A model generated the notes under the pieces. It searched no databases, had not been told where the DNA came from, and saw nothing but the letters and a program-made list of their open reading frames with translations. DNA of 46,396 nucleotides from Acidimicrobiales bacterium (GTDB taxonomy: Bacteria > Actinomycetota > Acidimicrobiia > Acidimicrobiales > SZUA-35), in the NCBI GenBank assembly GCA_020629155.1, contig JAHDDW010000001.1, forward strand, positions 1-46,396, given 5' to 3'. Of the stretch, positions 289 through 37,208 are shown in pieces. Position 1 is the stretch's first letter; each line of letters begins with the position of its first letter. The position numbers were made by a program, and so were the translations under genes.

Positions 289-3200
289 ATGCGCCACTTT
301 GTCCTTTTTCGGCAATCTACTTATCGGTCGCTGCTAGCACTGATTATTGCGACAGCAGCAATTGTCGTCCCGATACCATTTGGGGGCACAGCTAGCGCCG
401 CTCCTGCGTCAGGCACAATTGAAGGCACCGTCTTCCGCGATTTCGGTGCAGACGGCAGCTTTGACAGCGTTGATAGTGGCGAAGCAGGCATCGAGGTGCG
501 TGTCTATGACGATGAAAACGCTATGGCAGGGCCCGTATTGTCTGACGAGGACGGTGCCTATAGCGTCGATTTATCATCGCTTGAACAGACAGTAACCGAC
601 ACGTATCGTGTCGAGTTCACAATCCCTACAACGCACAACTATTTGCAGAACAGCTTCCTTGGCGATGACAACAAAGGCCCTGTTCAATTTGTTGCGGCTA
701 ACACTTCAGATGCTCATTTTGGCGTTACAAACCCTGCGCAGTTCTGTGAGGCTAACCCTACGTTAGCGGTTACCTGCTGGGTTAATGGTCAAGCCGATGG
801 TGATAGTGACGACGGCCCTAACGACTCAGACACCCTCGATGCACTTGTCACCTTGCCGTGGGATGGCCATTCAAGCACAACAGATTTAAACCTTCCAACC
901 AACCCATCGCATGTGGCATACAACGGCCAGATTGGCACAACTTGGGGTGTTGCTCATCAACGAACGACAGACAGCCTCTATATCGGTGCAGCACAGCGAC
1001 GCCATGCAGGTTTCGGCCCTGGCGGCACAGGTATGATCTATAAAGTTAACACTGACGGATCTTCTTTCAGCAATTTTCTAGACCTCAACGCACTAGCCGG
1101 AATTGCTACAGGCGCAGATCCACACACTGGCCTTCCAGACCAATCGTGGGTGCAATCAAACCCTGCAGATTCAGCCTCGTATGATTCTGCTTCATTTGAC
1201 GCAGTAGGAAAAATCAGTTTAGGCGACATCGACATTTCTGAAAATGGCGAAACCCTTTGGGCGGTTAACGTTAACGACAGAACCTTGCTCGAAATCCCAA
1301 TCGGCCCGACTGGTGTCGCTCCAACAGCTGCAGAAATCACACAGCACGACCTAGGCGGCGCTGTCAGTTGTACAAATGGCGAGTTCCGCCCCTTCGGCCT
1401 AGGTGTACGAGACGGCAAAGTTTATGCTGGCGGTGTTTGTTCAGGTGAAAACGGCGGCTCTGCCGCAGACGTTGTCTCACACGTACTTTCTCACGATCCA
1501 AACGGGGCAGACAGCAACTTTACTTCTGTCTATAGCCTTCCTATGGACTATCGCGCAACACTTCGACCAGCTAATGAAGAATGTGCGTTCCGTCTAGGCG
1601 GAAGCGGTATTGGTTGTGATGGTTGGGGTCCATGGGCTTCATCTTGGGGAAGTCCAGAAGAACTTATTCTGAGCGCAAATCATCGTTTTTATGCTGCACC
1701 TCAACCCATTTTAACTGATATTGAACTTGATGCTGATGGCTCAATAGTTCTTGCTTTTGCAGATCGTTTCGGCATGCAATCAGGTTTCCGTAACTACGAT
1801 GACTCTGGAACAAACACAGCGCTTCATTCAGGCACAACAGGCGGCGATCTTATCCGCATTTGTAATGACGAAGGATCGCTCACCTTTCCATGTAGGGCAG
1901 ATAATTCAGAGTTCTATGTTGGTGATAACGCTCCAGGTGGTTCTGACTTACACCCTGAATCTGGTTGGGGCGGCATAGCGATGCACTTCGCCAATGGTGA
2001 AGTAGCGATGACTATTGCTGACCCAATTAGAGTGTGGTCTGGTGGTATTGGCTGGTTTGATAAAGAAACGGGTCTTATCCCAGTCAACCCTGATGGTACA
2101 ACTCGCAGGTATGAAGTTTTTGAAGGCGGTTCAGATAATCTAGCTGCTCCTCCTTCGGGTCAGACAGGTGTTGGTAAAGCAGCTGGCCTTGGCGATTTAG
2201 AGCTTATTTGTGAAGCTGCTCCGTTCCAAATTGGCGACCGAACATGGTTTGACCGTAACGCAAACGGCCGCCAAGACCCGTCCGAGCCATCATTGCCTGG
2301 CGTGACTGTACTGTTGCGTGACAGCGGCGGCGACGTTATTGCGCAGACAACAACCGACGCATCTGGTATCTACAATTTCTCTTCTCTAGAGATTGCAGAG
2401 CTAACAACGCTAAGCGACTACACGTTAGAGTTTGATGCTTCAACTGCCGAACTTATCGGAATTGAAGAGATAGCAGACGTCTCTCTATTAAAAGCAACAA
2501 CACAAAATGCTGCCGATACTGACGACAATGATGACTCTGATATTGATCCAGCAACAAATCGAATTGCGATTACCACTGGCTCTTCAGGCGTTTCTAACTT
2601 CAGCTTCGACGCAGGCTTCACTGGCGGCCTACAAATCGGCAACATGGTTTGGTTCGACCTTAATAATAATGGTGATGCAGATGACGGCGAACCGCTTGTT
2701 GAAGGCATCGAACTGCAACTTTACCGCGAAAATGGCGCTGCTGGCTTCGACGGCACCGAAGAACTTGTTACTACTACGACAACCGATGAAAATGGCGTTT
2801 ATTCGTTTAAACAGATCATTGAAGGCGATGCTTATTATGTCGCAATCGCAGAAGATCAAGCCGGTAGCACCATCGTAGTCGACGGCCAAACTCTTGATGG
2901 ATCGACGCTCATGACATCGTTCAGCAATGGTAGCGGCGGCGCAGATAATGCACACGACGGCCAGCCAACTGATGGCTTCCTTTCAGTTACCGAAGCTATA
3001 ACGCTCAGCGACGACGTTGGATCAGAACCAACTGATGAAACAGATACTCCGCCTTCACCAGATACTGACGCTGAAGCTGCCCTGTTCGCTACGACCGACC
3101 ATTTTATTGAAGATGATAATTCTAACCTGACGGTAGATTTTGGTATTGTTCAAAAACTGCGCATAGGCAACCTTGTGTGGCTTGACGGCGAATTCGGCGA

Positions 3201-6200
3201 CGCTGGGTTCAACAATGGCATTGCAGATGCTGCTGAAGCTAACCTTGGTTTAGGTGAAGTAACCGTCGAACTCTATGAAGACGACGGCGACGAAGCATTC
3301 TCGCCAGACATGGACGAGCTCATTGACACTGTGACAACAGATTCTTCTGGCCGTTATTGGTTTGAAGCAGTCAACGCTGGCAACTATTTTGCTGCTATTC
3401 CAGCAGATCAGACGGGCCAAACCCTTGACGGCAACAGTGTTGATCTTGACACGCTTTTCCGTTCCACACCAATCAGCGACTCTGCCGATGGCGAAGACGA
3501 CCGCAATGATGGCTCCGCTGGCAGCGGTTTCGCCTCAGTTTCTAGCCTATTCACAGCAGATGCTGCTATAGCGCCTACAAGCGAAGGCGGCGATTTCGGC
3601 AGCGGCAACGCTGAAGCAGAAGCCAACGCTGAAACTGGCGGCTACGTGAACAGTTTCTCTGACTTAACAATCGACTTCTCATTTGTTGAACAGCCAGTGT
3701 TCTCAATCGGAAACCTTGTGTGGGCTGATCTTGACAATGATGGCATCGCTGAAGATGGTGAACCAGGTATTGAAGGTGTGACTGTCGAATTGCATGTGGC
3801 TGGTGAAACAGACGTTTATGACAGCGTTGAAACTGACGAAAATGGAAAGTATGTTTTTGAAAATCTTCCTGCCGGTGATTATGAAGTAAGCATCGATAAA
3901 AATCAGACAGGTCAACAGATTGGCGAACAAGCTATCGACCTTTCTGCTTTGCTTGCAAGCTCAGCTGTTGCGACTAACACAAACGATGATACTGATAACG
4001 ACCATAACGGCATCGGAACCACAACATTGCGCACTAGCGCTGTGTCAGTAGGCGACCCAGATCCATATAATCCAAGCGAATCTGAAAGCGAAACGCTTCG
4101 ATCGGATGACACAACAGACGACGATGCTTCTGTTGAAGATGCGTCTTCTAACTTAACAGTTGACTTCGGTTTTGTGCTTCCCGCGCGTATCGGTAACCTT
4201 GTGTGGCTCGATAATGGTGGTGGCAATCCTGGCGATTACACCTACAACGAGGCCGATGAAAATGACGGTGAAGCTGATGTTACCGAAGCTGGTATTGCTG
4301 GCGTGCTTGTGCAGTTACTTGACGACAGCGACGAGGTTGTCTTTGAAACAGTTACCGATGAACAGGGGCGCTATTGGTTCCCAGCTGTTCTTGCTGCTAA
4401 CTATAAAGTGGCAATCCCTGCCGAACAAATACCTGTTCTTGATTTGACGCTAGCGCCAACATTGGGTGCTCTCGACAATGTTGAGATCTCTTCTGTTGTC
4501 TCAACGAACCCAGAAACAGCTGACGATGATAATGACGGTGCTGCCGCTACTGGGTTTGCTGCTCTTTCTGAAACCGTCACCGTTGGCTATGGGACAGAGC
4601 CAACCGATGAAAACGGCGATTTCGACGATGCGACAGTTGACGCTGCTGAAGATGATGCGAACACCGCAAACGGTTGGCTGCCAGATGGAAACTCTAACTT
4701 AGCTGTTGACTTTGGGTTCGTTCCCGTGCCTACTTATAGCGTCGGCAATCTTCTTTGGGAAGACTACGATAACGACGGCATCGCCGATGACGGCGAGCCG
4801 GGTATTGCTGGCGTGCTTGTGTTCCTTGTAGACAACAATGGCGAAGTTATCGCCGAGCTTCTCACAGATGAAGACGGCAACTATCGCTTTGATGACGTTG
4901 CTGCTGGTGATTACACCATCGTTATTCCCGAGAATCAGGCACCTGTGCTTGACGTTACACTTGTTCCAACGCCCCAGGCACTTGCTGGTTTGAAGCCGAG
5001 CAGCGTTTCTGTGGCAGACCCTGATGATGCAACATCGATAGATCATGATTCTAACGGCGTTGCTGTGACTGAAGCTGTTGTGAGCGGCACGTTCACACTC
5101 GGCGACGGAGACACCCATAGCGAACCGACTGGAGAAACAGTCCGTAGCGATGATGCTGCTTCGATAGAGCCGGCAGCAACACGAGCTGACCGCACAGAAT
5201 TAACCGTTGACTTTGGCTTCTGGCGCGGACTACGCCTTGGTAACCAGGTGTGGCTAGATGGCATTCAAGGTGAAGCTGGTTACGACAACGGTGTGATGGA
5301 TGCTGGCGAGCCAGGACTAGCTGGTGTTCGTGTTGAGCTGTGGCGTGACGTTGACGGCGACAGTGTCGCAGAACCAGAAGGAGACGACAGCCTTTCTGCA
5401 CTAGATGTTACTGTTACCGATACCGAAGGTAACTATTGGTTCACAGGTTTAGAAGATGGCGAGCCATACTTTGTTGTTATTCGTGATGCCGATGGTTTGG
5501 AAACGAACCAAGAGTTCTCTTCTACAGGCATCTCAGGTACTCCCCTGTCGACAGACAATGATGACGATGGCGCGCCGTTAGATGGTCACGCTGCAGTATC
5601 AGAAGTTGTTACCTTAACTACTGGCGACCAGTCAACGGGTGAAACTGACGCTGTTCCTGCAGAAGATGCCGAGGCTGAAGCAAATGCGGCTAGTGGTGTG
5701 ACACCAGATGCTAACTCTGAGCTGCTTGTAGACTTCGGCTTTATCGAAGTGCCTCGCTATCGAGTAGGAAATATTGTTTGGGATGACACAAATGCTAACG
5801 GTCTCGCTGAAGAAGGAGAACCAGGCATCGCAGGTGTGCTTGTGCAGCTCTTTGCAGGTCCAACGCTTATCGGCGAAACAGTAACAGCAGCCGATGGTTC
5901 GTACCTCTTCGTTGATCTTGTTGCTGGCGACTATAACGTAGTTATTCCACTTTCGCAGACACCGCAGCTTGGCGAACAGACCGATCTTGTGGCTGGCGCT
6001 CTTGATGGGTTTCGATCATCAAGCGAGAACGAATCTGATGACCCTAACGACGATGTTGATAACGATGACAACGGCGTAGGAAACACGCTTGAAGCGGCAA
6101 GCTCTGAAATTGTAACTTTAGGTCCAGATGGGTCTGGCCCTTCGTTTGAGACAGAACCTACTGATGAGACGCAACGCAATGATTCTGCTGTTGACAGCGA

Positions 6201-8997
6201 CCCTAATGCAGGTGAAGAAGGATCATATCCTGATTCTATGTCTAACCTCAGCGTTGACTTTGGTTTCTATCGTCTCACGCTTGGTAACCAGGTTTGGTTT
6301 GACACAGACGCTGATGGCACCAAGGACGAAGGCGAACCAGGCATAAACGGTGTTGAAGTGAATCTACTTCTCGTTGATGGTGAAGACGAAACAGTTGTAG
6401 CCACAACTGAGACAGCTAACGATGGTGAAGATGGCATGTTTATTTTCACTGGCTTGATTGACGGCGAAACCTATATCGTCGAAATTGCTGCTAGCGAATT
6501 TGCTGCTGATGGCCCGCTGGCTGGCATGTTCTCATCGCCTGACAGTGACCCTGTTGCTGATGTAACTGTTGGCATTGACAATGACGATAATGGCATCGAC
6601 CCAGAAGCTGACGAACCGCTACGTTCTGACGCTGTTGAAGTGTCAGCTGGTGAAGCGCCTACAGGTGAAGACCCTGCTGGAACTACCCCTGGTGCTGACG
6701 ATACACAGAATGTAACGGTTGACTTTGGTGTCGTTGGTTTGGCGTTGGGCGACCAAGTGTGGCTAGACGAAAACGAAAACGGTGTGATTGATGAAGGCGA
6801 ACCAGGCATTGAAGGTGTCACGGTTGAGCTGTGGGCCACTGACGAAACAGGCACACCAACAGGAACAGAACCACTCACAACAGTGACAACAGACGAAGAA
6901 GGCAATTTCTTATTCGCTGGGTTAACGCCAGGGTCATTTATTGTGGTGCTACCAGAGCAGAACTTTGCGACAGACGGACCACTCGTTGGCTTCACCTCGA
7001 CACTAGGCAACGGCGTTATCGCTCCACTACCTAGTGATGATGTTGACAATGACGACAACGGAAATTTGGATGAATCAGGGCTTTCTATAGCTTCTGGCGT
7101 GATTGAGCTTAGCTTCGCTGGTGAACCTGGCGACGAAACAGGCGAAGATCCGCAAGGCTTCGACCCTCGTAACACTAACCTCAGTGTTGACTTTGGTCTT
7201 GTCCCTACCCCACCGATGAGTGTCGGTAACAGGGTGTGGGAAGATACCAATAATAACGGTGTTATCGATGAAGGCGAACCAGGCATTGAAGGTGTCACGG
7301 TTGAGCTGTGGACCACTGACGAAACAGGCACACCAACAGGAACAGAACCACTCACAACCGTAACAACAGACGAGACAGGGCATTATCTCTTTGAAGGTGT
7401 TACCCCTGGAACGTTTGTTATTGTGTTGCCAGCTAGCAACTTTGTTGTAGACGGTCCTGCACATGGCTTGTTCTCTTCGACATCATCACCTGCGACAGAC
7501 CCTAACGACGACGTTGACAGCAATGATGACGGCATCGATCCAGCTGGTATTGGTTCTGCTATTACAAGCAGCCCATTCACCTTGGTGCCTAGTTGGGAAC
7601 CGCTCGCTGAAACCGATACAGGTTTACTGGGTGCAGGCTCAGTTGATGGAACACCTATTGCTGATGCGCATTCTAACTTAAGCGTTGACTTTGGTCTTGT
7701 CCAAGTTGGAGTTGGCAACAGGGTTTGGTTTGATGCTGACAACTCAGGCACGTTCGACGAAGGCGAAACACCATTTGCTGGTGTTGAAATCGCACTTGTT
7801 GACAGTGACGGCCAACTTGTTACCACAACGATGACTGACGATGACGGTTATTACCTCTTTATTGGTTTCACGCCGGGCGACTATCGTGTTGTTGTTACAG
7901 CCGAGAACTTTGCCGCTGGTGGACCGCTTGCTGGCCATTTCTCTTCGACTGGGAACGGCGTAGCGACAGATCCTGATGACGATGTCGATCTTGACGACGA
8001 CGGCGAAGCTGTTGAAGGTGGTTCGATCTTCTTCGGTAGTGTTTGGTCAGATCTAGTTACTATCGAAGCTGGTAGCGAGCCAACAGGCGAAACTGGTTTG
8101 ACAAGCGGCACCGACGCAAACGTTAACGCAACAGTTGACTTTGGTTTTTATACCGCTGACCTTCTTACTACCTTATGGATAGATGCTAATGACGACGGCA
8201 CATTTGATAAAGGTGAAACACCATTGGCGAATGTGAACGTTGAAGTTGTTGCAGCAGAGCCTCCTAACACGGTACTTGGGAAAGGAACCACTGATCAAGA
8301 AGGACAGCTCTTTATTGAAGGACTACCTGAAGGTTCTGTGAAGCTACATTTCACACCTGAAAACTTTGAAGATGGAGGCCCACTCGATGATGTTGTGTTG
8401 CGAACAACTAGCATGACAGAAGAAGGCGGCATGCTTTCTGAGACTATTGAGCTTGTTAGTGGCAGCAACGAGGTTGAACTACTCGATGTGTTGGGCACAA
8501 CGCTGGTGCCCGAAAGCACTATTGGTGATACTGTTTGGAATGATAAAAATGGCGACGGCATCAAAGATGACGACGAGCCAGGCCTTGCTGACATTGTTGT
8601 GACACTGCTTGACGAAGCTGGCAACGAAATTGACCAGACCACAACCGATGAGAACGGTAACTACAACTTTGATGGCCTACTTTCTGAGGTGTACACCGTG
8701 GTTATTACTGTTCCTGAAGGTTGGGAATTGTCGCCACAAGATGTTGGCGATAACGACAGCGTTGATTCAGACTTTAACCCTTCAACAAGCAGTACGACTA
8801 TCACGCTTGACACTGGTGACCGTCAGCAATCTATTGACGCTGGTTTGCGAACCTCAGACTTTGATTCTCTTGGTGCGCCACCTGACGATCTAGCGTTTAC
8901 TGGTTCATCTGTGATGTGGTTCGGTTTCGCTGGGCTTGTTCTCAGCAGTGCAGGTGTTGCGATCTATGCAATGCGACGCAGGCAAGTGACGGTGTAG
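289..8997 (+). CDS. Giant secreted SdrD B-like repeat protein with LAxTG wall anchor
   Basis: This 2902-residue surface protein is probably an adhesin or stalk. Residues 1-37 are a signal peptide (basic start, hydrophobic core, cleavage after TASA). A B-like unit follows (about 41-130). Residues about 150-640 are a Cys-containing region with a possible beta-propeller look (phrases such as DIDISENGETLWAVN). From about residue 648 to 2820 come 14 SdrD/Cna-B-like units, each opening with (I/L/V)GNxVWxDxxxDG and EPGIxGVxV and closing with an NLxVDFGF strand; acidic DNDDNG segments between them may bind calcium. The C-terminus has LAFTG (2868-2872), a hydrophobic span and MRRRQ, which is a sortase signal of the LAxTG type used by class E sortases. 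No sortase gene is in the window. The ATG has an AGGGG-type ribosome site and the gene ends in a strong terminator. Ligand and function are unknown. Confidence 0.93.
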   Translation: MRHFVLFRQSTYRSLLALIIATAAIVVPIPFGGTASAAPASGTIEGTVFRDFGADGSFDSVDSGEAGIEVRVYDDENAMAGPVLSDEDGAYSVDLSSLEQTVTDTYRVEFTIPTTHNYLQNSFLGDDNKGPVQFVAANTSDAHFGVTNPAQFCEANPTLAVTCWVNGQADGDSDDGPNDSDTLDALVTLPWDGHSSTTDLNLPTNPSHVAYNGQIGTTWGVAHQRTTDSLYIGAAQRRHAGFGPGGTGMIYKVNTDGSSFSNFLDLNALAGIATGADPHTGLPDQSWVQSNPADSASYDSASFDAVGKISLGDIDISENGETLWAVNVNDRTLLEIPIGPTGVAPTAAEITQHDLGGAVSCTNGEFRPFGLGVRDGKVYAGGVCSGENGGSAADVVSHVLSHDPNGADSNFTSVYSLPMDYRATLRPANEECAFRLGGSGIGCDGWGPWASSWGSPEELILSANHRFYAAPQPILTDIELDADGSIVLAFADRFGMQSGFRNYDDSGTNTALHSGTTGGDLIRICNDEGSLTFPCRADNSEFYVGDNAPGGSDLHPESGWGGIAMHFANGEVAMTIADPIRVWSGGIGWFDKETGLIPVNPDGTTRRYEVFEGGSDNLAAPPSGQTGVGKAAGLGDLELICEAAPFQIGDRTWFDRNANGRQDPSEPSLPGVTVLLRDSGGDVIAQTTTDASGIYNFSSLEIAELTTLSDYTLEFDASTAELIGIEEIADVSLLKATTQNAADTDDNDDSDIDPATNRIAITTGSSGVSNFSFDAGFTGGLQIGNMVWFDLNNNGDADDGEPLVEGIELQLYRENGAAGFDGTEELVTTTTTDENGVYSFKQIIEGDAYYVAIAEDQAGSTIVVDGQTLDGSTLMTSFSNGSGGADNAHDGQPTDGFLSVTEAITLSDDVGSEPTDETDTPPSPDTDAEAALFATTDHFIEDDNSNLTVDFGIVQKLRIGNLVWLDGEFGDAGFNNGIADAAEANLGLGEVTVELYEDDGDEAFSPDMDELIDTVTTDSSGRYWFEAVNAGNYFAAIPADQTGQTLDGNSVDLDTLFRSTPISDSADGEDDRNDGSAGSGFASVSSLFTADAAIAPTSEGGDFGSGNAEAEANAETGGYVNSFSDLTIDFSFVEQPVFSIGNLVWADLDNDGIAEDGEPGIEGVTVELHVAGETDVYDSVETDENGKYVFENLPAGDYEVSIDKNQTGQQIGEQAIDLSALLASSAVATNTNDDTDNDHNGIGTTTLRTSAVSVGDPDPYNPSESESETLRSDDTTDDDASVEDASSNLTVDFGFVLPARIGNLVWLDNGGGNPGDYTYNEADENDGEADVTEAGIAGVLVQLLDDSDEVVFETVTDEQGRYWFPAVLAANYKVAIPAEQIPVLDLTLAPTLGALDNVEISSVVSTNPETADDDNDGAAATGFAALSETVTVGYGTEPTDENGDFDDATVDAAEDDANTANGWLPDGNSNLAVDFGFVPVPTYSVGNLLWEDYDNDGIADDGEPGIAGVLVFLVDNNGEVIAELLTDEDGNYRFDDVAAGDYTIVIPENQAPVLDVTLVPTPQALAGLKPSSVSVADPDDATSIDHDSNGVAVTEAVVSGTFTLGDGDTHSEPTGETVRSDDAASIEPAATRADRTELTVDFGFWRGLRLGNQVWLDGIQGEAGYDNGVMDAGEPGLAGVRVELWRDVDGDSVAEPEGDDSLSALDVTVTDTEGNYWFTGLEDGEPYFVVIRDADGLETNQEFSSTGISGTPLSTDNDDDGAPLDGHAAVSEVVTLTTGDQSTGETDAVPAEDAEAEANAASGVTPDANSELLVDFGFIEVPRYRVGNIVWDDTNANGLAEEGEPGIAGVLVQLFAGPTLIGETVTAADGSYLFVDLVAGDYNVVIPLSQTPQLGEQTDLVAGALDGFRSSSENESDDPNDDVDNDDNGVGNTLEAASSEIVTLGPDGSGPSFETEPTDETQRNDSAVDSDPNAGEEGSYPDSMSNLSVDFGFYRLTLGNQVWFDTDADGTKDEGEPGINGVEVNLLLVDGEDETVVATTETANDGEDGMFIFTGLIDGETYIVEIAASEFAADGPLAGMFSSPDSDPVADVTVGIDNDDNGIDPEADEPLRSDAVEVSAGEAPTGEDPAGTTPGADDTQNVTVDFGVVGLALGDQVWLDENENGVIDEGEPGIEGVTVELWATDETGTPTGTEPLTTVTTDEEGNFLFAGLTPGSFIVVLPEQNFATDGPLVGFTSTLGNGVIAPLPSDDVDNDDNGNLDESGLSIASGVIELSFAGEPGDETGEDPQGFDPRNTNLSVDFGLVPTPPMSVGNRVWEDTNNNGVIDEGEPGIEGVTVELWTTDETGTPTGTEPLTTVTTDETGHYLFEGVTPGTFVIVLPASNFVVDGPAHGLFSSTSSPATDPNDDVDSNDDGIDPAGIGSAITSSPFTLVPSWEPLAETDTGLLGAGSVDGTPIADAHSNLSVDFGLVQVGVGNRVWFDADNSGTFDEGETPFAGVEIALVDSDGQLVTTTMTDDDGYYLFIGFTPGDYRVVVTAENFAAGGPLAGHFSSTGNGVATDPDDDVDLDDDGEAVEGGSIFFGSVWSDLVTIEAGSEPTGETGLTSGTDANVNATVDFGFYTADLLTTLWIDANDDGTFDKGETPLANVNVEVVAAEPPNTVLGKGTTDQEGQLFIEGLPEGSVKLHFTPENFEDGGPLDDVVLRTTSMTEEGGMLSETIELVSGSNEVELLDVLGTTLVPESTIGDTVWNDKNGDGIKDDDEPGLADIVVTLLDEAGNEIDQTTTDENGNYNFDGLLSEVYTVVITVPEGWELSPQDVGDNDSVDSDFNPSTSSTTITLDTGDRQQSIDAGLRTSDFDSLGAPPDDLAFTGSSVMWFGFAGLVLSSAGVAIYAMRRRQVTV
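6790..6896 (+). repeat. Near-identical 107-bp internal duplication, copy 1
   Basis: This stretch in repeat unit 10 matches 7267-7373 in unit 11 at 104 of 107 positions by manual alignment. The copies are exactly 477 bp (159 codons) apart and in frame. The other units are far more diverged, which points to recent duplication or gene conversion. Confidence 0.9.
7267..7373 (+). repeat. Near-identical 107-bp internal duplication, copy 2
   Basis: This is the partner of 6790-6896. The three differences are one in the WAT/WTT codon and two in the run encoding TTVTTDE. It sits at the same place in the B-like fold, covering the EPGIEGVTVELW strand and the TDETGTPTGTEP loop. Confidence 0.9.
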
Positions 8998-9771: not shown

Positions 9772-11349
9772 ATGAATAATGCACAGGTTTGTTTATTGTT
9801 GGCTCCTAGCCCTCCACTACTTATCTTCCCTTCTGATGAAGGTCCAGTCGCCGTGGAATTGGTTTCACGCTCCATCGACCTTGTTGATCTGATTCACCGT
9901 GTGGCCGAAGAACGCCGTGCTATTCCTGTTGGTAATGACGAATGGAAAGGCGCAAAGAAAAGCTTAAGCAAGGTTCTCAAAAGATACGGACCTGTAGACA
10001 AGCTAAAAGAAAAGCTAGGAATAGACCAACGCTCTTTAAATTGGCACATCCTTTTCCGCCATGCTGCTGGCAAGGTTAGTCTTCAACCTTGGGTAAACGT
10101 TGATTATTGGCTTATCCATGCAGAGGTCGATAAATTACAACGCAATGGGCAATTACCAAAGCTGGAAGTTGATCAAAAAGAAGCAACTGCTGTTTCGGCA
10201 CTTGCTGAACTTATAGCCGAGCAACCTACAGAGAAAATCAAACCTGCTTTGTTAGAAGCCAGTAGTTACTGGCCAGACAGCCAACAAGTCGCTTTCCAAA
10301 CCTTAACTGAAGAGTCAGAGCAAGTGATAAGCAGATTTATTCTACACCTAACTACTAAAGAGAAAAATCTAGAACAAGCAGCCATCCCTAAATTAGAAAT
10401 AGGAGAATTTCCTTCATGGTTTGTGTGGAGCCCAACAGCGATCAACGATCTTAAAGATAGACATGAACGTATCATAGAGACGATTTTAGCTAGCAGGCCA
10501 ATTCCTGAAACACAAAATTTCTGTTCTTACCAAGGAACCAGCGCATGGTTAGCTTTATCAGACATAACTTTAAATCCAAATGAAGCTACATCTGTTGCAC
10601 GTATAGGAAAAATTGCCTCTGAGATAGCTAAAAATGTTGATTCTGAACTCATCGATATTCTAAGTTTAGGTCCTGGAGATGGGGTTAAGGATAGCAAGCT
10701 CCTACAAGCATTTGATGATGCAGCGATCGGGATACATTACTACCCGACCGACATTAGTCCCCTTATGCTAGGAATCGCCGTTGGACATGTAAGAAGGACA
10801 ATAAAGAACATTCAGATTACAGGCGTGGTGACAGACTTTAGCGAGAAAACACTGCGCACTAAAGAACTAGTTCTTGAGAGAAAGGAAACGACCAAACCAG
10901 CATTTATCAGTATGCTCGGAAACACCCTGGGGAATATAGAACAGGATTGGAGATTCGCTTGCTCACTTGCCAGCTCTCTATCAGCAAACGACTACTTGCT
11001 CTTGGAAACTAGGAGCACGAATTGCCTTGAGAATACACTAGAAGTAGAAGTTAAAGAAACTTTAACTAGAAACTTCTATCTTGAGCCTCTATCTGCTATC
11101 AATGCGTCTTATAGCCTAGACAGCGTTTACTGCACTGTAGAAGATGAAAGAAACGGCATAGCCGTAAAAATTCATTGTAAAAACGTTGGACATGAGAGAT
11201 TCACTCCTCGCAATGTCGAACTATTCAAACTGAAACATTATGACAATGATTTTTTTGACAAGCTCTCAGAAGAAATAGGAGCAGAAATTATTTTCCGAAG
11301 CGAGCCTAACCAACCTTTCACTGACATAGCTCTTTTCCGAAAAAACTAG
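9772..11349 (+). CDS. EgtD-family SAM-dependent methyltransferase with extra N-terminal region
   Basis: The C-terminal part (about 220-525) matches the EgtD/Methyltransf_33 family, which includes the histidine N-alpha-trimethylating enzyme of ergothioneine synthesis. Visible motifs are LSLGPGDGVKD (about 297-307, SAM loop), YYPTDISPLML, GVVTDFS, MLGNTLGN and a LLLETRS strand. At 525 residues it is roughly 200 longer than typical EgtD. The N-terminal region is mostly helical, and the segment around residues 80-100 (VDKLKEKLGIDQRSLNWHI) looks like a helix-turn-helix. No egtB, egtC or egtE partner is nearby, so ergothioneine synthesis is not implied; the substrate is unknown. The start is ATG with AAAGGCG just upstream. 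Its TAG stop shares the palindrome CTAG with the stop of the convergent ABC gene. Confidence 0.82.
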   Translation: MNNAQVCLLLAPSPPLLIFPSDEGPVAVELVSRSIDLVDLIHRVAEERRAIPVGNDEWKGAKKSLSKVLKRYGPVDKLKEKLGIDQRSLNWHILFRHAAGKVSLQPWVNVDYWLIHAEVDKLQRNGQLPKLEVDQKEATAVSALAELIAEQPTEKIKPALLEASSYWPDSQQVAFQTLTEESEQVISRFILHLTTKEKNLEQAAIPKLEIGEFPSWFVWSPTAINDLKDRHERIIETILASRPIPETQNFCSYQGTSAWLALSDITLNPNEATSVARIGKIASEIAKNVDSELIDILSLGPGDGVKDSKLLQAFDDAAIGIHYYPTDISPLMLGIAVGHVRRTIKNIQITGVVTDFSEKTLRTKELVLERKETTKPAFISMLGNTLGNIEQDWRFACSLASSLSANDYLLLETRSTNCLENTLEVEVKETLTRNFYLEPLSAINASYSLDSVYCTVEDERNGIAVKIHCKNVGHERFTPRNVELFKLKHYDNDFFDKLSEEIGAEIIFRSEPNQPFTDIALFRKN

Positions 11350-13530: not shown

Positions 13531-13599
13531 AGCGTGTTCTGCTCGATGATTACGCAACAATGCAAACCCAAAGGAACAAGAGCCTATAGAGTATACATC

Positions 13600-14934
13600 G
13601 TGAATCTTTCTAATAAGAAAATACTGTTTACAGGTTTTAGCATTCTTGAGGGCAGTGCCAGCAAAGCGCTGTACGACTACCTAAAACGGACCTATCTCAA
13701 CACCAAAATTCATACCTTGTATTGGGGTGGACAACAAATTGCTAGCGCCTTACCTGATGATGTTGCTGCAATAGAGATTTCAGAAAACAACAATTTTGAT
13801 ACCGTTGATTTTTCTGCCTTTGATATCGTTTTTAGACATACAACAACGCAACCGCATACGTTGTCTGCTGCTGATTCTGTTTCAACAGCAGAGAATGAGT
13901 TTTTTAAACGTTCTGCCAGCAAAAACATTATCGGAGTAACTGGCACAAAAGGGAAGGGCACAACCTGCTCATTAATAGCAGAAATCTGCAAAACGGCAGG
14001 AAAAAGAGTCCATCTTGTCGGCAACATAGGCACGCCAGCGTTAACTGTTATCGAAGATATCCAACCTGACGATATCGTTGTATATGAGCTATCAAGTTTT
14101 CAGCTTTGGGACCTCGAACAAAGCCCTCCTGTTGCCGTTGTGCTGATGATGGAGCCCGATCACTTAGATATCCATGCATCTATTCAAGAATATAAACAGG
14201 CAAAGTCGTCGATATGTAAATCTCAGAAGTCTCAAGATATTCTTGTGCACCATCCCAGTAATATGATGACGCTAGACACACTTGCGGGCGAGGCGAAAAA
14301 AATCCCTTACATGGATAGCAGCTCTATTAACTCTTGTTTTGTTGAAGATGGCTATCTCACTATTGCAGGCCATCAACTTTGTAAGACTTCAGAGGTGGCG
14401 CTGCGAGGAAAACATAACCTTGAAAACATTTGCGCAGCAGTAACTGCCATCTGGCCGCAGATTCAAGATATTGGCGCTATTAACCAGGTTCTTACAACAT
14501 TTGCTGGCCTTCCCCACCGAATCGAATTTTATAAAAAAACAGAAGGCATAGACTTCTACGATGATTCTTTTGCTGCCGCGCCTTCAGCTGCTGTTGTGGC
14601 ATCACATGCTTTTCCAGGTAAAAAAATCATACAAATAGTTGGCGGTTTAAATAGAGATTTGGACTATCAGACCTTCGCACAAATGGACTTTTCTTCTTTA
14701 AGGAAAGTGCTGTTGATTGGAGAGAACGCTAAAGCTATAGCGGCTGTGTTGCAATCGGCAGGCTACAACGACTATCTCTTTGTTGCCGACATGCAAGAGG
14801 CTATCCACCAGGCTATGGCTCACGGACAACCAGATGATATCGTCCTGCTTTCTCCAGGGAGTCCAAGTTTTGACATGTATAAAAACTATAAAGAACGTGC
14901 AGCCGACTTCAGAAAGACAATTGATGCGCTATAA
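13600..14934 (+). CDS. murD2: MurD-family ligase, probable MurD2 (UDP-MurNAc-L-Ala:L-Glu ligase)
   Basis: This Mur ligase has an N-terminal Rossmann-like domain, an ATP loop GVTGTKGKGTT (about 112-122), a central domain with ELSSFQLWDL and MEPDHLDIH, and a C-terminal domain with LPHRIEFY, DDSFAAAPSA and LSPGSPSFDMY. It looks like MurD, which adds glutamate to UDP-MurNAc-L-Ala in the cytoplasm. The gene directly downstream matches MurL, the epimerase that works with MurD2. From that context I infer this is MurD2, the version that adds L-Glu. Sequence alone does not prove L- over D-Glu preference. GTG at 13600 (VNLSNKKILFTG) fits the family N-terminus. An in-frame ATG at 13534 exists but nearly abuts the Nudix start. 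TATAGA/GTATAC just before the GTG may be a -10 for a leaderless transcript. Confidence 0.85.
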   Translation: MNLSNKKILFTGFSILEGSASKALYDYLKRTYLNTKIHTLYWGGQQIASALPDDVAAIEISENNNFDTVDFSAFDIVFRHTTTQPHTLSAADSVSTAENEFFKRSASKNIIGVTGTKGKGTTCSLIAEICKTAGKRVHLVGNIGTPALTVIEDIQPDDIVVYELSSFQLWDLEQSPPVAVVLMMEPDHLDIHASIQEYKQAKSSICKSQKSQDILVHHPSNMMTLDTLAGEAKKIPYMDSSSINSCFVEDGYLTIAGHQLCKTSEVALRGKHNLENICAAVTAIWPQIQDIGAINQVLTTFAGLPHRIEFYKKTEGIDFYDDSFAAAPSAAVVASHAFPGKKIIQIVGGLNRDLDYQTFAQMDFSSLRKVLLIGENAKAIAAVLQSAGYNDYLFVADMQEAIHQAMAHGQPDDIVLLSPGSPSFDMYKNYKERAADFRKTIDAL

Positions 14935-16216
14935 AAACTTCATATTTGAGAACTACAGTTTCGATCATAAGACCCTCAGCCTCACTTTGCGATATTCATT
15001 CGATGGTACAAGAGAATTTACAGAAACGATTCAATTCTATTCTGCAGAAAAGAATATCGACCTGACCGTTCTAGACAAAGTCTGTGAATATATTTTCTTG
15101 GTGGCTGGCACTTCGTATTACAAACTTTTTCCTTCTGTTTCGCTAGACCTTGGGGAGATTACCCTTACTTCTGAGCAGGCCCAGCTGCTTACGAAACTCT
15201 ATCAGGGAGGGTTGAGCCAATATGCTTATGAGAACGAACTTGATCCAACTATTTTGCCTATTTTTACGTCAACCAGCCAGACCGCAACGCCAACAGCCTA
15301 TGACTGCAATGGGACCTTGCTCATGCAAAGCGGTGGTAAAGACTCGTTGCTGAGCGCCGAGCTGCTTCTTTCCGCTGGGCATGAGTACACAATGTTTCAC
15401 GTCAGCACGACAGGCAAGTTTCCTGCTTTTCTCGAAGAAATTACTCAACCGCTAGTTGTGGCAAAGCGCACTATCGATATTGCAGCTCTTAAACAAGGCT
15501 TAGCTGATGGTGGCCTTAATGGACATATCCCTTTTTCAGCACTATTTGCAGGCTTCGCACTTTTGCAGGCAGTGCTTCTAAACAAGAATATTGCGGTAGC
15601 TTCAATAGAAACTTCGGCGGAAGAACCGAACCTTATGATCGGCGATTTTGAAGTTAACCATCAGTATTCAAAAAAATATGAGATCGAACAAGCAATCCAA
15701 CGTTATATTCACACAACGATATCTCCTGACCTGAATTATGGATCGGTTCTTCGTCCGTTTAACGAAGCAAAAATTGGGCAGCTTTTTTCTTCATTCGCCT
15801 GGGGCAAATACAGAAAGAAGTTTAGTTCCTGTAACCTCGCGAACTACAAGCAAGGAGAAGATGATGGGCAGTTAACGTGGTGCGGTTCTTGCCCCAAATG
15901 CGCGAACAGTTTCCTGCTTTTTGCCGCGTACGTCCCTGAAGAAGAGCTGCTCGAAATATTTTCTGGCAAGAACCTTCTTGCGGCTTCCGATATGAAAGAA
16001 ACCTATAGACAACTTCTTGGCCTTTCCGATATCAAACCTATGGAATGTGTGGGAACAATTGAAGAAATGCGATATTTATATCATCAAGCTCTCAAGCGAA
16101 ACAGCGCATATGACCTAGGTTTCGACGTGCCAGCGGCGAAGAACTTTGAGTTGGACGAATTGGAAGCTCATCAAGCACTTTTCGATGAGCTACTCGACTA
16201 CGACAGTCTTCGCTAA
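14924..16216 (+). CDS. murL: Probable UDP-MurNAc-L-Ala-L-Glu epimerase MurL
   Basis: The 430-residue protein has a PP-loop-like ATP motif LLMQSGGKDSLL (SGGKDS at 136-141) and a metal- or redox-type cysteine motif WCGSCPKCA (319-327). It also has LRPFNEAKIGQLF near 270 and the HIPFSALFAG segment. This architecture and the pairing with a second MurD fit MurL, which inverts the terminal L-Glu of UDP-MurNAc-L-Ala-L-Glu in an ATP-dependent way to supply D-Glu for peptidoglycan. The ATG at 14924 overlaps the end of murD2 by 11 bp, so translation is coupled. The identification rests on remembered family features and gene context, without a search. Confidence 0.8.
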   Translation: MRYKNFIFENYSFDHKTLSLTLRYSFDGTREFTETIQFYSAEKNIDLTVLDKVCEYIFLVAGTSYYKLFPSVSLDLGEITLTSEQAQLLTKLYQGGLSQYAYENELDPTILPIFTSTSQTATPTAYDCNGTLLMQSGGKDSLLSAELLLSAGHEYTMFHVSTTGKFPAFLEEITQPLVVAKRTIDIAALKQGLADGGLNGHIPFSALFAGFALLQAVLLNKNIAVASIETSAEEPNLMIGDFEVNHQYSKKYEIEQAIQRYIHTTISPDLNYGSVLRPFNEAKIGQLFSSFAWGKYRKKFSSCNLANYKQGEDDGQLTWCGSCPKCANSFLLFAAYVPEEELLEIFSGKNLLAASDMKETYRQLLGLSDIKPMECVGTIEEMRYLYHQALKRNSAYDLGFDVPAAKNFELDELEAHQALFDELLDYDSLR

Positions 16217-23191: not shown

Positions 23192-24394
23192 GTGGCTACA
23201 AGCCAGCTAAGTCGACACCTTCGTGCTCTCATAGCAAGACATACATTGTTTCTCTACGCAAGAGACAGCTTCCGCCTTTTCACTAATCTCTACCTATTTG
23301 AAACCTCTGATGGCGATCTGCAGCTTGTTGCGATCTTCAATATTCTATTTCTGGTATTTCACACCGCAGCTTTTCCACTCTGTGCCGGCCCTGTCAAAAA
23401 AGGCAGAGGCACAGGCAACCTAGTGTCAGCCTTACTTGGCTTAGCCGCAACGATGACGACCGTTCTACTTTTAGGAGAAGAAACCGCACAGTGGTATGTG
23501 CCTCTAGGCATAGTTTTTGGTTTTTTTAATGGGCAATATTGGATCGTTGCTCATGCCGAATCGTTAGACGCAACCGATGAATCTAACCGAGCAACATTTT
23601 TCTCCTACAGACAATCACTTCGTTTAGCGACAGCTGTATTGATGCCTGCTATCGCTTGGACTATCTTCGCTACCACATCAAATGACGCTCTTGCATACCA
23701 AATGATTTTTGCTCTTGCTATCGCCGCTATCTTATCTGCTTTGTTTTTCGCCAAAGTCACCATGAAAACAAGTGAAACGTTTCTTCTGAGACAAACCTGG
23801 CAGACGCTACGCAAAACACCCGGCTTTCTTGCGTTAGGAGGATACAGCACAATTTCAACTGCCGTAGTGCGAGGCGCAATAGTTACGCCACTATTACCCT
23901 TCTTGCTTGTTGACTTACTTGAAGGAACAACGCAATTTACGATGGTCGAGACCATAACCCAATGTAGCGTTATTCTCATTAGTGTCACTTTCGCACGTTA
24001 TCAAAAAAATGCTGACCGCATAGTTTCTATGGGGTACGTCGCGTTATTTTTGATAGCTACAGGTTTGTTTATGCTTTTCTTTGAAGCATCACTTTTCACC
24101 TATGGCCTTTATCTTGTGCTCAACATTACTGGAGCCTCAGCCATGGCTATTTCTTGGAGCACTATCTCATACAACTTTGTCTCGCATACCCCTACGATTG
24201 CCCAACAAGATGTTGAATATATCGTTATACGGGAATTCTTTGGTTTAAGCGGCTACACGGCAACCTTTGTGTTTCTCTACTTTTTTGACTCGCTCACGCT
24301 TGAAGCACTACGGCCGTTGCTGTTTACGCTTCTTCTTGGACTTGTAGTTTCAGGTCTGCTTTACAAGCGCCTTGTCAAAGCTTTTGCTATTTAG
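23192..24394 (+). CDS. MFS-like membrane transporter, paralogue 1
   Basis: The 400-residue protein has about 12 hydrophobic spans in two halves, as in the major facilitator superfamily. It is clearly paralogous to the protein encoded at 35994-37208. Shared stretches include ARHTLFLYARDSFRLF near the N-terminus, the SDGDL and KGxGT motifs, GxFNGQYW, FFSYRQ, RTPGF-like KTPGF and LPFLLVDLL. The substrate is unknown. The chosen start is GTG, with no strong ribosome site. It lies 78 bp after the two-component genes on the same strand and could be their target or partner. Confidence 0.8.
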   Translation: MATSQLSRHLRALIARHTLFLYARDSFRLFTNLYLFETSDGDLQLVAIFNILFLVFHTAAFPLCAGPVKKGRGTGNLVSALLGLAATMTTVLLLGEETAQWYVPLGIVFGFFNGQYWIVAHAESLDATDESNRATFFSYRQSLRLATAVLMPAIAWTIFATTSNDALAYQMIFALAIAAILSALFFAKVTMKTSETFLLRQTWQTLRKTPGFLALGGYSTISTAVVRGAIVTPLLPFLLVDLLEGTTQFTMVETITQCSVILISVTFARYQKNADRIVSMGYVALFLIATGLFMLFFEASLFTYGLYLVLNITGASAMAISWSTISYNFVSHTPTIAQQDVEYIVIREFFGLSGYTATFVFLYFFDSLTLEALRPLLFTLLLGLVVSGLLYKRLVKAFAI

Positions 24395-35959: not shown

Positions 35960-35993
35960 GGAAAATAACCAGTAACCTTGTTTGCTTACTCTG

Positions 35994-37208
35994 ATGGGCA
36001 CAGAACTTACTCGGCAACATAAACGAATTATCACGAGACATGCTTTGTTTATCTACGCCAGAGACAGCTTTCGACTTTTCTCTAACATCTACCTTTTTGA
36101 TCAGTCAGATGGCGACCTTGCTGTTATCGCCACGTACAACATTGTGTTTCTCGCAACGCATCTTGTGACCTTCTACCTTTTTGCTCCTTGGCTTCAGAAA
36201 GGCAAAGGCACCATCATACTATTTTCTTCTTTTATCGGGCTTGCAGCAACCACTGGAGCTGTTCTTGCCTTAGGAGATAACACAGTCGATTATTACATCG
36301 CAGTTGCTTTAGCTTTCGGCGTTTTCAACGGCCAATACTGGCTAATTCTTCATAGCGAATCGCTCACAAGCACTACAGAGCAGCAACGAGCCTCATTCTT
36401 TTCTTACCGTCAAGGTTTCCAACTCGCTGCAATGTTTCTAACCCCTTCACTCGGCTGGATCGCATTTCAGCTTTCCGATTCACAAGAAGTTGCCTATCAA
36501 ATTATCTTTTTTACGGCAATCGCCGCGTTAGGCATAACCATGTTTTTTGCTAACGTTGAAATAGAATCTAAAGAAACATTACAACTTCGTTTTACTGCAA
36601 AAACCCTTGTACGAACACCTGGGTTCTTCTCTCTCGCAACCTTTACAACAATAACGTTAGGAGTTTCACGTGGAGCGTTAAACACTCTTGTTCCTTTCCT
36701 ACTCGTCGATCTTCTTGACGGAGAATCGGGTTTTGCTGCTGTTGAAACTATCGTGCAACTTTTTGCTATAGCGATGAGCTTTGTTTTTGCGCGATACAAA
36801 CGAAACACACAGCACATTTCGACTATGGGGTACCTCACGTTTGCTCTTTTTGCTATAGCATACCTTGCGCTCTTTTTTGGTTCCTCTCTTGTGACCTATT
36901 CTATTTATCTAGCGTTACGGGTTGTAGGTTCAACGACGTTGAATATTTCTTGGAACACAGTTACCAACGATTTTTCTTCTCAGAACTCATACGTATCGCA
37001 ACAAAGCATCGAGTTTATTTTGATACGCGAAATATTCACTATGAGCGGCTTCATTATAAGTTTCTCATTGCTTTACTTTCTTGACACGCTGACGTTAGCG
37101 GCGCTGCAACCATTACTCACAGTTTTTCTCATAGGCACAGCTATTGCAGCCTTCGCTTTCCGTAATCTTTTAAAAAGCTTGGCAGTTGCCAAGGAGCCAA
37201 CGCCCTAG
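35994..37208 (+). CDS. MFS-like membrane transporter, paralogue 2
   Basis: The product (404 residues from ATG at 35994) has about 12 hydrophobic spans and is paralogous to the protein at 23192-24394. Common motifs include TRHALFIYARDSFRLF, QSDGDLAVIA, KGKGT, GVFNGQYW, FFSYRQGF, RTPGFF and VPFLLVDLLDGE, spread over the whole length. The substrate is unknown. A TTG at 35982 is an alternative start nearer to a GAGAGG motif about 20 bases upstream. Repeat copy A lies directly before it and may contain its promoter. Confidence 0.8.
   Translation: MGTELTRQHKRIITRHALFIYARDSFRLFSNIYLFDQSDGDLAVIATYNIVFLATHLVTFYLFAPWLQKGKGTIILFSSFIGLAATTGAVLALGDNTVDYYIAVALAFGVFNGQYWLILHSESLTSTTEQQRASFFSYRQGFQLAAMFLTPSLGWIAFQLSDSQEVAYQIIFFTAIAALGITMFFANVEIESKETLQLRFTAKTLVRTPGFFSLATFTTITLGVSRGALNTLVPFLLVDLLDGESGFAAVETIVQLFAIAMSFVFARYKRNTQHISTMGYLTFALFAIAYLALFFGSSLVTYSIYLALRVVGSTTLNISWNTVTNDFSSQNSYVSQQSIEFILIREIFTMSGFIISFSLLYFLDTLTLAALQPLLTVFLIGTAIAAFAFRNLLKSLAVAKEPTP

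Follow-up and report, generated by a model that had tools for sequence, protein, structure and literature searches.

Two reviews describe a known counterpart of the locus analysed here, the MurD2-MurL pair of Xanthomonas oryzae (XOO_1320/XOO_1319; PMC8788868, PMC5808125), which, unlike the combination of MurI and canonical MurD, makes up a route that needs no free D-glutamate (D-Glu). As described in PMC5808125, MurL depends on ATP and Mg, forms AMP, acts one way and has no known domain, for want of which its mechanism was called unclear; PMC8788868 likewise reports that MurL uses ATP and releases AMP. According to the latter source, the pathway is limited to relatively few genera, the E197D/R358K exchange switches X. 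oryzae MurD2 to D-Glu, and a K319T exchange in E. coli MurD leads to acceptance of L-Glu. In the enzymes of the QueC family, which enter into the comparison below, phosphate is bound by an SGGxDS motif and zinc by C(x)8CxxCxxC (PMC13329287).

The window, by which we mean the whole stretch of 46,396 nucleotides that was analysed, forms the start of contig C5 (positions 1-46396) in a host genome of 3.17 Mb and 59 contigs that is 97.4% complete, 2.8% contaminated and contains one MurL match. The features of the gene pair are as follows.

13600..14934, + strand: MurD2-like ligase, 444 aa, GTG start (murD TIGR01087, 283 bits)
14569..14571, + strand: codon of Phe324, which corresponds to K319 of E. 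coli MurD (residue comparison)
14924..14934, + strand: 11-bp overlap of the ligase and MurL-like genes (both frames read)
14924..16216, + strand: MurL-like protein, 430 aa, ATG start (NF041275 match, tree, predicted fold)
15329..15346, + strand: codons of SGGKDS (residues 136-141), PP-loop (alignment of 65 sequences)
15830..15901, + strand: codons 303-326 with C303, C320, C323 and C326, possible zinc site (alignment)
16046..16048, + strand: codon of C375, putative catalytic residue (Cys in 65/65 sequences)

The listed open reading frames begin further 5' (at 13534 and 14780), and the starts at 13600 and 14924 are choices inside them. An earlier note on this DNA had described a second-type Mur ligase that overlaps by 11 bp with a MurL-like protein carrying SGGKDS and WCGSCPKCA motifs. 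Both frames and their overlap, which suggests that the two genes may be translationally coupled, were confirmed, and the motifs stand in the translation at residues 136-141 and from residue 319, respectively. Against murD TIGR01087 the ligase scored above the cut-off of 212 bits (E 3.6e-84). The 430-aa protein matched a single NCBIfam model at E<=0.001, MurL NF041275, with an E value of 3.6e-72 and over most of the model length (positions 8-392 of 447). This model (MurL_Xanthmoales) is a Xanthomonadales model with a curated equivalog cut-off of 700 bits; the window protein reached 243 bits, and no genome among the 296 of the host's class, the 396 of the phylum sample or the 294 of the Saccharibacteria class passed the cut-off either. 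Judged by its sequence, we place the window protein in the broad MurL family, with a MurD-type ligase gene adjoining it, and do not file it as an NF041275 equivalog. Given the E values of both proteins and the recurrence of the window's gene order in 63 of the 81 Saccharibacteria-class loci having both genes, the pair is not a chance arrangement. The earlier note's identifications were thus borne out: comparison supports the downstream protein as a MurL homologue, which groups with MurL and not with unrelated PP-loop enzymes, and the ligase as a MurD homologue of the MurL-linked kind, different from the canonical MurD of the dcw cluster. The note's suggestion of an actinobacterium agrees with the gene content, which may point to Acidimicrobiia.

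At the places of D182, K319 and K348 of E. coli MurD the window ligase has Asp187, Phe324 and Arg352. This numbering, which was counted by hand with one residue of offset, fits chains that we take to be those of E. coli MurD. Although the ligase is over the TIGR01087 cut-off, it lacks both of the canonical lysines. Lys at the 319 place was present in 3/3 dcw MurD proteins versus 0/125 MurL-linked ligases, and in all seven solved MurD sequences with printed alignments. The residue at this place is Phe or Tyr in 60 of the 62 Saccharibacteria pairs in which MurD precedes MurL, Leu in all 29 ligases of the host's class, and Ile in 12/15 ligases from the rest of the phylum and in 15/16 Saccharibacteria pairs of the opposite order. 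Position 319 therefore offers a simple marker for telling the two ligase types apart, while for the window ligase the missing K319 is only suggestive of L-Glu specificity. Arg at the 348 place, which corresponds to R358 of X. oryzae MurD2, is found in 104/125 MurL-linked ligases, and Lys occupies it in 20/62 Saccharibacteria ligases of the MurD-MurL order. The Glu of the 182 place (E197 in X. oryzae) had also been tried as a classifier of ligases and was dropped, since it occurs in just 43/125 MurL-linked ligases and is not a mark of the family.

The MurL protein was compared in an alignment of 65 of 68 references (a partly random choice, with L173, L174 and L178 left out). In the PP-loop, G137, G138, D140 and S141 are invariant (GGxDS in 65/65), residue 136 varies between Ser (23 sequences) and Gly (42 sequences), and Lys occurs at residue 139 in 52. 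Outside the loop H201, H246, K250, C375 and E381 are invariant and may be considered candidate catalytic residues. The complete cysteine set C303-x16-C320-x2-C323-x2-C326 was found in 58/65 sequences; it is lost in L117 and L103, and a metal is therefore perhaps not needed in every MurL. A structure model computed from the 65 sequences (pLDDT 97.2, pTM 0.94) had QatC (9y01_B) as its best solved relative in VIA-align (Z 17.8, 3.9 A over 321 residues), together with QueC (Z 13.6) and Cap9 (Z 12.4), the following match being at 8.9; Foldseek also recovered QatC with an E value of 7.5e-6, yet with a TM-score of 0.38. The window MurL thus resembles the QueC family in predicted fold, in GGxDS (here the full SGGxDS, as SGGKDS) and in CxxCxxC, but 16 residues instead of 8 precede CxxCxxC, neither Pfam QueC nor PADLOC matched the window protein, and no queuosine or defence context was seen. 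Pfam QueC matched 4/65 MurL sequences weakly (best E 0.006), no Pfam family reached its cut-off with the window MurL (best PAPS_reduct, E 0.025), and phmmer against PDB sequences returned nothing at E<=0.1. Since a MurL profile search yielded no more than weak matches to PP-loop proteins (TtuA 2e-4, QueC 0.05) and did not include QatC at E<=1, the link to QatC rests on fold and motifs.

The model predicts MurL to be a QueC/QatC-like PP-loop enzyme, one that would work like QueC without being filed as such, and this fold would explain the published ATP-to-AMP requirement. Likely steps would be adenylation of the Glu alpha-carboxylate, as proposed in PMC8788868, followed by proton exchange at C-alpha and then hydrolysis, and a QueC-like fold would make such an adenylation mechanism testable. 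We found no paper connecting MurL to QueC in the open-access collection searched, in which two papers use the name MurL in this sense and none contains both words; PMC13329287 contains neither 'Mur' nor 'epimer', while PMC13279940 lacks 'epimer' and a 'Mur' passage there is an author name.

MurL-MurD2 pairs are also present in the host's own class and phylum, but they belong to separate clades and have the opposite gene order. MurL precedes MurD in 42 of these 45 loci, made up of 27 such loci and two gene fusions in the class, and 15 such loci and one with the genes on opposite strands in the rest of the phylum. In the Saccharibacteria class, 63 loci have the MurD-MurL order of the window, 16 have the reverse order and two are fused. 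These loci derive from 82 of the 101 MurL carriers of that class, with the 19 left out mostly low-scoring, plus L010 from outside the sample; L167, L171 and L172 are repeats of genomes already included. Counts were based on family searches, and an exact-peptide scan of contigs with the MurL protein gave two loci. No MurD was selected for L014, L075 (which has a 20-bit match), L109, L174, L176, L177 and L178, and the trees leave out proteins shorter than 330 aa (MurL of L165, L175, L176 and L177; MurD of L121 and L162).

In the 130-row MurL tree the window protein falls into a starred set of 36 rows, the other 35 of which are all from the Saccharibacteria class, and its long branch arises outside these nearest 35. 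A careful tree of 56 hand-picked rows united it with 18 Saccharibacteria rows (100/100), and its placement with the phylum's own MurL was rejected (p-AU 4e-6, in AU tests picked after viewing a first tree). For the ligase, the quick tree of 128 rows placed the window ligase in no starred set, and the careful one, in which 56 of these rows were likewise chosen by hand and the bootstrap was not fully settled, joined it to 28 Saccharibacteria-class ligases of the MurD-MurL order (98/97.7), again with rejection of a grouping with the phylum's MurL-linked ligases. In the MurL tree, two Saccharibacteria-class proteins (L064 and L068) fall on the side of the actinobacteria, which complicates the simple picture. 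By gene order and both trees the pair is assigned to the Saccharibacteria type and not to the class's own MurL. The Saccharibacteria pairs (L009, L010 and relatives) share the window's order and the clade of both proteins; they differ in their neighbours, and identity to the nearest compared relatives is at most 45% for MurL and 41% for MurD. The pair was probably transferred from a Saccharibacteria-type lineage; since the long branch of the window protein attaches outside the rows nearest to it, the donor is unsampled and the direction would follow from nesting. Most of the Patescibacteria in culture are Saccharibacteria that grow on Actinobacteria (PMC10633639).

The same comparison revealed two further Saccharibacteria-class MurL clades with the MurL-MurD order (L115, L132 and eight relatives; L102-L105 and relatives), both separate from the MurD-MurL clade. 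MurL and MurD form a single frame in L017 (1321-3951, genome G166) and L023 (100-2682, G009), which belong to one genus of the host's class, and MurD and MurL do so in L112 (600-3158, G484) and L113 (1838-4342, G464) of the Saccharibacteria class, which stand apart in the MurL tree.

Two MurD proteins of the host genome score above the cut-off, the window ligase and a 358-bit MurD at C30:9331-10617. This second MurD is part of a dcw cluster that also holds rsmH, murE, mraY, murG, murC and ftsZ, along with ftsI-like and ftsW-like genes that are under their models' cut-offs (ten proteins of the cluster were tested, and murF was not one of them). Because this MurD retains D182, K319 and K348, and its divergence (54.8 and 56.3% identity to two relatives) is no greater than that between the relatives (56.5%), it looks functional. 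Among 33 genomes searched, namely the 31 MurL carriers of the class and two relatives, the host alone has two MurD at E 1e-40; the other 30 carriers have one or, in four MurL carriers, none.

MurI above the cut-off of 147 bits was absent from the host genome, in which a single partial match reached 37 bits. This match is an Asp/Glu-racemase-superfamily protein (L008 1291-2046) on the 12,482-bp contig C10 that is nearest to cysteate racemase (90.6 bits), followed by aspartate racemase (80.2 bits), all under cut-off, and that could be another source of D-amino acids. D-amino-acid transaminase (Dat) reached 53 bits at best and was over its cut-off in 0/35 genomes. At these cut-offs the host thus has neither MurI nor Dat, as in X. 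oryzae, with weak superfamily matches remaining and the genome being 97.4% complete. In the host's family, G265 has cysM followed by a coiled-coil gene and then murI, rph and rdgB, G223 has cysM-murI-rph-rdgB, and G273, which has its own MurL, has cysM and rph as neighbours with no murI match between them. The rph-rdgB locus of the host lies about 127 kb from the pair on the same contig C5; another open reading frame occupies the expected place of murI, and no cysM was seen within the 16 kb read. Given the completeness value and the differing gene order around rph, murI may have moved or may be missing from the assembly. The earlier note had asked for this survey of the genome for murD and murI, and its route proposal, incorporation of L-Glu followed by epimerisation, is probably right in its main idea, judging by sequence: it gains from the absence of murI and dat over cut-off, and of the two X. 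oryzae specificity residues the Arg is present and the Glu is replaced by Asp.

MurL and MurI exclude each other in both classes. MurL was found in 31/296 genomes of the host's class and MurI over cut-off in 166/296, the latter in 0/31 MurL carriers versus 166/265 genomes lacking MurL (Fisher p 9e-13, relatedness ignored). Among the 192 genomes of this class with any MurI match, the only MurL carriers are the host and G141, both with weak matches. The exchange recurs in families f1, f2, f9, f14, f16 and f17 and in genus g22, where MurL carriers are without MurI and sampled relatives lacking MurL have it. In the Saccharibacteria class MurL is present in 101/294 sampled genomes, about a third; strong MurI (E under 1e-25, with no best-per-genome match between 1e-29 and 1e-13) was found in one of these 101 (G381) versus 113 of the 193 others (p 6e-27, relatedness ignored). 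Weak MurI matches occur in 17 MurL genomes of this class, and the genomes of L009 and L010 have no MurI match. Neither MurL nor strong MurI was found in 80/294 genomes, which may use another route or be incomplete. PMC11974145 cites, by title, a work on the D-Glu racemase activity of a Saccharibacterium.

We consider it likely that the two genes constitute a MurD2-MurL route for the D-Glu of peptidoglycan, taken up from a Saccharibacteria-type lineage with loss of murI. In a class where MurI is present in the majority of sampled genomes, with some members having a MurL of their own, the host would have acquired the foreign pair and lost murI while the canonical dcw murD remained intact; the ligase would add L-Glu to the cell-wall precursor, and MurL would then flip the incorporated residue to the D form. 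Like X. oryzae, the locus has adjoining MurD and MurL homologues and Arg at the R358 place, but it differs in that MurD comes first in the operon and the host keeps a canonical dcw murD. Counted against the route are the MurL score under the NF041275 cut-off, Asp at the place of Glu197, where E197D altered stereospecificity in X. oryzae, the cysteine set that is not universal in MurL, and the presence of an intact canonical murD and a racemase-superfamily protein. These last two would allow the canonical route still to build the wall, with D-Glu supplied by the C10 protein or scavenged and MurD2-MurL as an accessory or backup. The ordered dcw cluster and a MurD that keeps its three residues and evolves no faster than in relatives speak for such an arrangement, which we regard as improbable, since the C10 protein, on its small contig, scores far better as a cysteate or aspartate racemase than as a glutamate racemase, and MurL elsewhere accompanies the loss of MurI. 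A reading in which the ligase adds D-Glu in the ordinary way and the function of its MurL-like neighbour is another would agree with Asp187 and with the Lys at the 348 place of some Saccharibacteria ligases, but we judge it very unlikely in view of Phe324 in place of K319, the lack of a D-Glu source above cut-off and the near-constant absence of strong MurI from MurL genomes.

The position of the window at a contig start, the grouping of both genes with Saccharibacteria and a G+C of 0.42-0.45 over about 9-17 kb raise the question of a mis-joined Saccharibacteria fragment, although G+C is equally low in other stretches, for instance at 36-37 and 42-43 kb. Codon usage favours a pair that has long been resident over a mis-joined one: the ligase and MurL genes score -1.096 and -1.137 against the host, whose own genes give -1.02 to -1.27 when each is omitted in turn, and fit even the best of 15 near Saccharibacteria models less well (-1.162 and -1.185, each model resting on two genes), while metH and the gene at 9772 lean slightly to a Saccharibacteria model. 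Together with the low identity to the nearest relatives and the missing murI on the same contig, as expected of a resident pair, this makes a mis-join the least credible explanation, one to which we attach hardly any weight. Returning to the acquired MurD2-MurL route, we give even chances to a wider joint reading in which an actinobacterium-like host has been caught midway through replacement by a Saccharibacteria pathway, with murI gone and both MurD types remaining, in which MurL is a QueC/QatC-like PP-loop enzyme turned peptide epimerase, and in which MurL is the main alternative to MurI in Saccharibacteria.

The earlier note had expected the locus to broaden the known range of the pathway. 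This holds for a Saccharibacteria-type pair in this host and less so for the lineage, in which MurL already occurs in 31 sampled class genomes; MurL/MurD2 had also been published in rare actinobacteria (PMC8788868). What looks new is that a Saccharibacteria-type pair stands in this host and does so alongside canonical MurD in the absence of murI, as well as how widely MurL is spread in Saccharibacteria, the use of position 319 as a marker and the resemblance of the MurL fold to QueC. Found in so many genomes of two classes, nearly always without strong MurI, MurL appears to represent a second major way of supplying D-Glu, and a Saccharibacteria-type pair in another phylum, with canonical MurD kept and no murI, offers a natural test of the swap of an essential wall pathway.

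Elsewhere in the window, 23192-24394 and 35982-37208 (+) encode two similar-looking membrane proteins unmatched in NCBIfam at E<=0.001. The 525-aa protein at 9772-11349 (+) has a partial match to Pfam PF10017, histidine-specific methyltransferase, preceded by a long unmatched N-terminal part, with the egtD model under its cut-off. At 289-8997 (+) lies the gene for a repetitive secreted protein of 2902 aa with an LAFTG-like end, which may be sortase-anchored.
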